Assembly: GCA_017468465.1 (NCBI GenBank)
Contig: JAFUIN010000009.1
Span: 71,113-118,553 of the forward strand
Direction of reading: 5' to 3'
From: Clostridia bacterium
GTDB lineage: Bacteria > Bacillota > Clostridia > UMGS1840
Length of the DNA: 47,441 bases
The position numbers and the translations under genes were made by a program. Of this stretch, positions 10,024 through 43,797 are shown one piece after another (the first letter of the stretch is position 1; every line of letters starts with the position of its first letter). The notes below the pieces were generated by a model. That model was not told where the DNA came from. It saw only the letters and a program-made list of their open reading frames with translations, and searched no databases.

Positions 10024-10109
10024 TGTCATTCTGAGTGCAGCGAAGAATCTCATGAAAAATGTTGAGATTCCTCGGCGCCTGAAAGTGTTCACAGCACCTC
10101 GGAATGACA
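10024..10109. repeat. Dispersed palindromic repeat of the TGTCATTCTGAG type
   Basis: The element begins TGTCATTCTGAG and ends CGGAATGACA, so its ends are inverted. Internally GAATCTCA and TGAGATTC (about 10044-10068) also pair. Repeats with this signature are common between genes in many bacterial genomes. Here it lies after gtrA and before the operon terminator. I cannot count other copies outside the window. Confidence 0.55.
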
Positions 10110-10154
10110 GCTTATAGCGGAAGCATCATTTATAAAGAGCAATTACAGTTTTAT

Positions 10155-10225: not shown

Positions 10226-10254
10226 TTGAATATTTTTATTGTTTGTGTTATGAT
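10226..10254 (+). promoter_or_regulatory. Promoter of the first leader-RNA/small-protein unit
   Basis: TTGAAT (10226-10231), 17 bases, TATGAT (10249-10254), with a TGT extended -10 element. Counting seven bases on puts the transcription start at about 10261, the first base of the 10-bp closing stem described in the next entry. Confidence 0.75.
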
Positions 10255-10259
10255 ATGAG

Positions 10260-10422
10260 TGCGACGCAACTGAATATTGGGCAATCTGTAAGAGAAGTGT
10301 TTTTATTTTTGGTAAAAACACATTCTCTGTTTTGGCTTTCTCTTATAGGTTGTCAAAGGTTGTGTCGCAACAATCGGAGTTTGTGTTTTTCGGTGCATCG
10401 ACTTCGGTTGGTGCACTTTTTT
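10260..10422 (+). ncRNA. Structured leader RNA with terminator hairpin, copy 1 (unassigned class)
   Basis: Closing stem P1 pairs GCGACGCAAC (10261-10270) with GTTGTGTCGC (10359-10368). P2 pairs AGAGAAGTGTTTTTA (10291-10305) with TAAAAACAC-A-TTCTCT (10313-10328), with one bulged A. After P1 comes the conserved block AACAATCGGAGTTTGTG. A terminator hairpin follows: a 10-bp stem closed by a UUCG loop (10393-10416), then six T. CAATCGGAG (10371-10379) can instead pair with CTTCGGTTG (10402-10410) and would break the terminator. The same architecture recurs at 43585-43797 with different stem sequences but kept pairing, which is strong evidence for RNA function. It may be an attenuator or riboswitch for the gene at 10444, or an independent small RNA. 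I cannot name an RNA family for it. Confidence 0.72.
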
Positions 10423-10443
10423 ATTGGAAAGGAATGCCTATTT

Positions 10444-13499: not shown

Positions 13500-13703
13500 G
13501 GGTTAATAAGACCCGCCGAGCCGTTGCCCGAAGATAATATTAGAAACCTGCATGTGCAGGTGGGTGCTTACCCTCAGTCGCACGTTCCCCATTCGGCTTA
13601 AAAAAGCGGTGGGCCTACAATTGACGAGAGGAGATGGGCTCCCTTATAAAAGGTGTTGGTTCTAATAAATATCCGGCTGACGAGAACGGCAGGAGGTTTA
13701 CAA
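13500..13703 (-). ncRNA. ssrS: Probable 6S RNA
   Basis: A non-coding stretch of about 200 bases between a strong -10 and a terminator. On the minus strand the ends form a long interrupted stem: CCTGCCG pairs with CGGCGGG, AGCCG with CGGCT, and ATTAGAA with TTCTAAT. The first segment has GTTCTCGTCAGCCGG, resembling the GTTCGxxAG segment of 6S RNA. The middle keeps the hairpins GGGTAAGCACCC and ACCTGCACATGCAGGT. Size, layout and isolated transcription fit 6S RNA, which binds sigma-A RNA polymerase in stationary phase. The alternative is a cis-acting leader of glyA, which is downstream, but the terminator and separate glyA promoter argue against this. A covariance-model search with Rfam RF00013 would decide. 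Confidence 0.65.
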
Positions 13704-42094: not shown

Positions 42095-43297
42095 ATGGCA
42101 AAAGCTAAATTCGAAAGAAGCAAACCGCACGTTAACATTGGTACTATCGGCCACGTTGACCACGGTAAAACTTCCTTAACCGCTGCTATTACCAAAGTTC
42201 TGGCTATGAAAGGTCAGGCTCAGTACGAAGCTTACGATATGATCGATAAAGCTCCGGAAGAAAGAGAAAGAGGTATTACTATCTCTACTGCACACGTTGA
42301 ATACGAAACCGATAGCAGACACTACGCTCACGTTGACTGCCCCGGACATGCTGACTATGTTAAAAACATGATCACCGGTGCTGCTCAGATGGACGGTGCT
42401 ATCCTGGTTGTATCTGCTGCTGACGGTCCGATGCCGCAGACCAGAGAACACATCCTGCTGTCTCGTCAGGTAGGCGTTCCCTATATCGTTGTATTCATGA
42501 ACAAAGCTGACCAGGTTGACGATCCCGAATTACTGGAATTAGTTGAAATGGAAATCAGAGAACTGTTGAATGAATATGAATTCCCGGGCGATGATATTCC
42601 GATTGTTAGCGGTTCTGCATTAGTTGCATTAGAATGTGCTGCTACTGATCCTTCTGCTCCTGAATATGCTCCCATCCTGGCTCTGATGGATCAGGTTGAC
42701 GCTTACATTCCGACTCCGGAAAGAAAAGCTGACTTGCCCTTCTTAATGCCTGTAGAAGACGTATTCACCATTACCGGTCGTGGTACTGTTGCTACCGGTA
42801 GAGTAGAAAGAGGTCAGTTAAAACTGAACGACGAAGTTGAACTGGTTGGTCTGGCTGAAGAATCCAGAAAAATCGTTGTTACCGGTATCGAAATGTTCAG
42901 AAAATTACTGGACTACGCTGAAGCTGGTGATAACGTTGGTTTACTGCTCCGTGGTGTTCAGAGAAACGAAATCGAAAGAGGTCAGGTATTGGCTAAACCC
43001 GGTACCATCAAACCCCACACCAAATTCAAAGCTCAGGTATACGTTCTGACCAAAGAAGAAGGTGGTAGACATACTCCTTTCTTCAACGATTACAGACCCC
43101 AGTTCTATTTCAGAACTACCGACGTAACCGGTCAGATTAAATTACCCGCAGGCACCGAAATGTGCATGCCTGGTGATAACGTAGAAATGGAAGTTGAATT
43201 GATTAAACCTATCGCTATTGAAGAAGGTTTAAGATTCGCTATCCGTGAAGGTGGTAGAACCGTAGGTTCCGGCGCTGTTACTTCCGTTATCGAATAA
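42095..43297 (+). CDS. tuf: Elongation factor Tu
   Basis: Delivers aminoacyl-tRNA to the ribosome. The 400-aa protein has [36 protein letters not shown] and MNKADQVDD (NKxD), then the two beta-barrel domains ending in [15 protein letters not shown]. The ATG follows AAGGAGG. It is the last gene of the operon, ahead of a strong terminator. Codon use is visibly biased, as expected for an abundant protein. Confidence 0.99.
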
Positions 43298-43584: not shown

Positions 43585-43797
43585 TTGTCACATAAACTTA
43601 ATTGAATAGAAGAAAGGGATTTTTTATTTATATAGGATAACTATATATTTTTTTGCATACCTTAATTTTTGTATTTGATAAAAATGCAAATTCCATTAGT
43701 TAGGGTGTGCGAATAAAATCCCATTCTGATTAAGTTTGTGTGACAACAACCGGAGTTTGCGTTTTTTGTGCGTCGACCTCGGTTGGCGCATTTTTTT
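43585..43797 (+). ncRNA. Structured leader RNA with terminator hairpin, copy 2 (unassigned class)
   Basis: P1 pairs GTCACATAAACTTAAT (43587-43602) with ATTAAGTTTGTGTGAC (43729-43744), 16 pairs including one G-U. TGAATA follows the first strand, as in copy 1. P2 pairs AGAA-A-GGGATTTT (43611-43623) with AAAATCCC-A-TTCT (43715-43727) and encloses a large A+T-rich insert with further small hairpins. After P1 comes AACAACCGGAGTTTGCG, then a terminator hairpin (43769-43790, loop CTCG) and seven T. CAACCGG (43747-43753) can pair with TCGGTTG (43779-43785), in competition with the terminator. Base changes relative to copy 1 keep the terminator stem, for example A-T replaced by G-C. Confidence 0.72.

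Follow-up and report, generated by a model that had tools for sequence, protein, structure and literature searches.

The leader RNA in front of a small gene in the 47,441-nt stretch of clostridial DNA analysed here (the window) belongs to a large family of promoter-leader cassettes, which in our judgement probably control the following gene by transcription attenuation, with a signal tipping the competition between two pairings of one shared strand, C; neither termination nor sensing has been measured. As far as can be judged from sequence, the element works like a transcription attenuator, with a predicted intrinsic terminator between promoter and gene and a covarying antiterminator that would exclude it. 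Rfam 15 contains no family for this regulatory RNA, of which some gut and rumen Clostridia carry tens of copies in each genome; the RNA may represent a large unrecognized regulatory system, whose copies lie mostly before genes for small, surface or secreted-type proteins.

Architecture of the cassette

The cassette has a constant order: promoter, stem P1, variable stem P2, hairpin P3 (strands A and B), the returning arms of P2 and P1, strand C, a terminator whose 5' arm and loop make up strand D, and a ribosome site (Table 1). The promoter of 229 full-length copies combines TTGaca with an extended -10 element (TRTGnTATAAT-like; -35 logo T97 T82 G75), and the gap between promoter and element is 5 nt in 154 of them, a spacing which implies that the RNA should begin at the first base of P1. 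Upstream conservation ends at the promoter. In the window copy the promoter has a 17-nt spacer with an extended -10 TGTG at 10244-10247, and its -10 box ends 6 nt upstream of P1. The initial annotation had placed a promoter before the closing stem and transcription start on its first base; the sigma-A boxes are there, but the start at 10261 is only inferred, without expression data.

Table 1. Positions of the leader elements, their genes and the related loci mentioned in the text
Feature	Position	Strand	Basis or remark
Sigma-A promoter, window copy	10226-10254	+	-35 TTGAAT 10226-10231; -10 TATGAT 10249-10254; sequence
P1 5' strand GCGACGCAACT	10261-10271	+	swap test z -29.7; covariation (G-C/C-G, C-G/A-U etc.)
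P2 5' arm	10280-10296	+	sequence varies among copies, pairing retained; swap test
Strand A (P3 5' arm)	10297-10307	+	A:B swap test
P3 3' arm, overlapping strand B	10311-10321	+	fold
Strand B (pseudoknot 5' strand)	10314-10329	+	AAAAACACA 10314-10322 and CTCTG 10325-10329; B:C swap test; duplex -17.0 kcal/mol
P2 3' arm	10338-10354	+	P2 swap test
P1 3' strand GGTTGTGTCGC	10358-10368	+	P1 swap test, covariation
Strand C	10369-10391	+	partner B via 10375-10379 and 10382-10390, or terminator arm D via 10371-10386; swap tests
Intrinsic terminator	10393-10422	+	10393-10402 with 10407-10416, UUCG loop, T-run 10417-10422; sequence, terminator covariation
Ribosome site AAAGGAA	10428-10434	+	ahead of the 75-aa gene
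Small gene behind window copy, 75 aa	10444-10671	+	function unknown; ORF list
Second copy, long type	43587-43797	+	P1 43587-43601 with 43730-43744; terminator from 43768
Cys-rich gene behind second copy, 72 aa	43818-44036	+	ORF list
Skipping-rope/drum RNAs in genome G238	L112 930-1029; L126 2189-2285; L134 650-739; L118 2397-2510		separate loci

The rest of the annotated fold proved largely right: the inner hairpin and the terminator with its UUCG loop and T-run are present, the closing stem exists with 11 bp, including G-U pairs, rather than the 10 claimed, and the nine-pair antiterminator between CAATCGGAG (10371-10379) and CTTCGGTTG (10402-10410) is exact and is lengthened by RNAfold to 10371-10386 with 10395-10410. 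What was overlooked is the other half of the switch, a B:C pseudoknot, which in the window copy joins AAAAACACA..CTCTG (10314-10329) to CGGAG..TGTGTTTTT (10375-10390) beyond P1 by 14 bp. The window element folds at -64.6 kcal/mol, against -33.6 +/- 3.7 for shuffled sequences (z -8.4), a stability that none of the 200 shuffles reached.

Across the family P1 has the consensus GCSACACAA with its complement and is followed by AAUAU and then P2. The 3' strand of P3, AAAAAUGC, runs into an unpaired GCUCU..UUUU segment; together, AAAAAUGC and GCUCU form strand B, which is complementary to strand C (consensus ARCAAUCGGAG..UGCRUUUUU), giving a pseudoknot of ~14 bp across P1. The P1 sequence, AAUAU and GGUAAAAA are conserved more than pairing requires, which is what a specific binding site would show. 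At 10025-10110 the window also carries an imperfect palindrome (TGTCATTCTGAG...CTCGGAATGACA), which presumably resembles a dispersed repeat of many gut assemblies.

Covariation of five helices

The suggestion that this is a functional RNA is borne out by numerous further copies, in which both swap tests and pair counts reveal covariation. In the swap test each strand is paired with its own partner or with partners from other copies (139-204 non-redundant copies). The z-scores were -68 for P2 (reversed control -12.3), -20.3 for A:B (-3.5), -15.5 to -22.7 for B:C (0.3 to -1.6), -17.2 for C:D (-3.7, and -1.5 in a further control) and -29.7 for P1, which lacks a reversed control. Since these scores count related copies as independent, the reversed controls gauge the size of that effect; it is sizeable for P2, yet there z tops its control more than fivefold. 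A register-based count for C:D, 10.62 versus 10.16 pairs of 12 (permutation sd 0.05), points in the same direction as the energy-based test and is less sensitive. In an alignment of 97 copies, which was fitted to P1 and the terminator structure and not to the pseudoknot, 98.2% of cells are paired with the pseudoknot included, two-sided changes occur at 18 pairs against 7.9 expected, and the covariation score is 0.230, compared with 0.124 after shuffling and no more than 0.051 after sliding. The pseudoknot itself contributes two-sided changes at 3 of its 13 pairs, its A-U tract hardly varying. These comparisons support the inference that the pairing of P1, P2, A:B, B:C and C:D has been kept by selection.

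The most telling copies are divergent ones. Strand C lacks GGAG in 52 copies, most of which retain both partners. At locus L125, where C reads AAUCAAGGCUGCG, both B (GCUUUGAUU) and D (UGCGUAGCUUUGAU) are altered to match, and the same joint change of all three strands is found at L021, L126, L129, L134 and L217; in a few copies (the upstream neighbour of L021, L097 and L218) one pairing is better kept than the other. Such joint change implies that B and D compete for C. Covariation shows the predicted B:C and C:D helices to be alternatives, as C could not hold B and D together, and C:D to be incompatible with the terminator hairpin. The switchable terminator that was originally proposed accordingly has a covarying antiterminator in C:D.

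Distribution of the family and its neighbouring genes

The same plan had been noticed once more, 33 kb away in the window. That second copy is real, but two copies greatly understate the family. It lies immediately downstream of the ORF at 42095-43297 and that ORF's terminator, and its pseudoknot joins B (43680-43694) to C (43752-43766) by an unbroken 15 bp with G-U pairs. A covariance model built on 13 short-type copies, the kind of search of clostridial genomes that the initial annotation had recommended, recovered the element from 67 genomes in a sample of 245 drawn across the class. The source genome (1.5 Mb) has 15-17 copies and G238 about 28, both counted in full, and G025 at least 11. 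With the 3' core alone as query, copies were found in 10 of 41 genomes comprising the source genome and its relatives, while a phylum-wide sample of 199 genomes yielded no element outside the source genome. An exact pattern search returned at least 120 stretches; among the matches listed, the titles name uncultured Clostridia, Oscillospiraceae, Ruminococcus and Monoglobus, chiefly of gut, rumen or faecal origin. The named sources of the element are metagenome assemblies.

No RNA class had been recognized at the outset, and the comparison with Rfam then advised agrees with this. Neither Rfam 15 (4227 families) at gathering threshold, for the window and 20 other loci, nor scans at a weak threshold, run on the window copy and 13 loci and giving only scattered sub-threshold matches, placed a family at the element, and membership of an Rfam family is rejected. 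The search itself works, because 6S, tRNA, drum and skipping-rope RNAs were recovered nearby. The 6S RNA (RF00013) lies at 13506-13698 on the minus strand of the window, ~3 kb from the element (73.8 bits; cut-off 46.4). Skipping-rope (RF02924) and drum (RF02958) RNAs occur within element loci of G238; kinship with them is rejected, their positions being separate and their sequence and fold unrelated on alignment, and the element matches neither model. We found no description of the element in the open-licence literature, though publication elsewhere cannot be excluded.

No match was obtained in plasmids, and viral matches are few: three unannotated phage-labelled faecal records and one viral contig. 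With upstream conservation confined to the promoter, a mobile or phage element is rejected. One of the phage-labelled records (MT835503.1, 331-800; L342) has a long-type copy upstream of what by eye is an adenine-specific DNA methyltransferase-like gene.

An ORF with a ribosome site lies within 200 nt of the element in 184 of 236 copies, and in 136 of 231 (59%) the start codon follows it at a distance of 10-29 nt, against 58 of 2360 random positions (2.5%). The largest cluster of these genes (47/184) encodes BspA-type leucine-rich-repeat proteins, with an LRR_5 domain in all four members tested. By a crude rule, 29 of 153 products are lipoprotein-like and another 50 have other signal- or membrane-segment-like features. 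Also represented are MraZ/MazE-like proteins with a zinc ribbon (scores below Pfam cut-offs), Cu-amine-oxidase N-domain proteins, RCC1 repeats, LytTR and AMP-binding enzymes. Several downstream families of 60-80 aa are without a Pfam match, as is the 75-aa product behind the window copy, whose homologues are found behind other copies (gene cluster 2). The Cys-rich gene behind the second copy, too, belongs to a family without a Pfam match; among 30 of its homologues in relatives, 25 have the element directly upstream. These Cys-rich small proteins (L343-L372 and the window gene) form a multi-copy family closely tied to the element, with the motif DxTGIxLxPGNxGKDCxGNG...CCCDEC. This gene set is too varied to indicate a metabolite; placement before unrelated genes is what one signal governing a regulon would give.

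Competition for strand C and its possible trigger

We envisage that the RNA would start at P1, fold P2 and P3 (A:B) and close P1 before C emerges. The unpaired CUCU/GCUCU beside P3 may then serve as a toehold from which C displaces A. Were B:C to form, D would be left free and the terminator would halt transcription, with the gene off; were it to form too late, C would capture D and transcription would proceed into the gene. A common cellular signal acting at the conserved P1/AAUAU/P3 region could tip this competition in riboswitch-like fashion, its ligand unknown and its sign undetermined. The energies in the window copy are close (A:B -15.0, B:C -17.0, terminator -15.5, half of the antiterminator -13.9 kcal/mol), while over 227 copies the terminator averages -16.5 against -11.8 for the half-transcribed antiterminator, implying that synthesis order probably matters.

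The covariation of the five helices, the start-codon spacing and the single promoter type at fixed spacing support this attenuator cassette. Against it stand the absence of expression data on start site or termination, 45 copies whose downstream flank, of 200 nt or more, shows no obvious gene, and some copies in tandem, with promoters of their own. The latter two features, along with the strong promoter and terminator of every copy, are also what would be expected if the terminated 165-nt transcripts were mainly independent trans-acting small RNAs, an alternative left standing by the initial annotation beside an attenuator or riboswitch. We consider it quite improbable: a position unrelated to the next gene is not what is observed, the tight start-codon spacing strongly favouring an attenuator, the association with the Cys-rich genes is close, and an antiterminator would be purposeless in a stand-alone RNA, yet it covaries. 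Still more remote, and in effect negligible, is the reading that the fold is due to chance, or the element a mobile palindrome, with no regulatory role; many copies per genome might suggest it, but it is contradicted by five covarying helices and gene adjacency, as well as by the fixed promoter spacing and the lack of upstream conservation other than the promoter.

If attenuation is granted, the trigger has to be identified. The element behaves like an orphan riboswitch. P1, AAUAU, GGUAAAAA and the C block are conserved, and B:C and C:D share strand C; that the conserved part is an aptamer is only inferred, there being no ligand-binding data. That it constitutes a very abundant unnamed riboswitch class of uncultured gut and rumen Clostridia, in which a new signal would act through three-strand competition of pseudoknot, antiterminator and terminator on a regulon in which small, surface and secreted-type proteins predominate, is a proposal we make tentatively, with slightly less than even confidence. 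The same attenuator could instead answer to an RNA-binding protein of the LicT or PyrR type, whether antiterminating or terminator-promoting, that recognizes P1/P3. Strong conservation within the P1 sequence and the P3 loop region and the varied downstream genes are compatible with this, and confinement to one class would fit a lineage-specific protein; but no candidate has been identified and the pseudoknot with strand exchange resembles metabolite-sensing platforms, leaving a protein trigger unlikely, if deserving of attention. The leaders of LicT/SacY RAT and other protein-dependent antiterminators likewise hold mutually exclusive antiterminator and terminator; RAT, however, is a short hairpin with imperfect pairing that overlaps the terminator, whereas in our element C finds its partner in an interior strand, across P1. 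There could also be no dedicated signal at all, the A:B/B:C/C:D competition itself sensing temperature, polymerase speed or Mg2+; the near-isoenergetic alternatives of the window copy would suit such a device, but a purely energetic one would not need P1 and the unpaired segments to be as conserved as they are, and we give this reading little credence. Translation of a leader peptide from GGAG is rejected, as by eye the ATG is too near GGAG in some copies and missing in others; CsrA binding at GGA seems unlikely, since divergent copies lack GGA.

Among known systems, the yxjA guanine riboswitch, a transcriptional purine riboswitch working by strand exchange, offers a close likeness, in that mutually exclusive helices compete cotranscriptionally to decide between terminator and readthrough (PMC9756952). 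Unlike it, the element has no purine aptamer and no Rfam match, its ligand is unknown, and its competing helix is a pseudoknot outside P1. Surface proteins are part of the regulon of the c-di-GMP riboswitches of Clostridioides difficile. Several copies of these per genome are reported to govern a regulon (PMC6200980, PMC11477304), a likeness to our multi-copy element, which differs in matching no Rfam riboswitch class. A GGDEF domain was found in 15 of 17 genomes tested, but in neither the source genome (96% complete) nor G025 (97%), both high in copies, and c-di-GMP is disfavoured as a general ligand. About 100 orphan riboswitch candidates still await a ligand (PMC10043782). Should the riboswitch-like attenuator favoured here sense one signal, a single cue would be tied to surface repeat proteins and dozens of small proteins of unknown function, in bacteria not easily grown in culture. 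The strands that covary in nature point to mutant and compensatory pairs with which a surrogate host would allow a direct test of the mechanism.

Three copies stand in tandem before one Cys-rich gene of the source genome (G000:C1:40207-40729; L097, L100, L108), with a new promoter between the last two. Further close pairs of the element are seen in G000:C13, G008:C14 and G024:C5.
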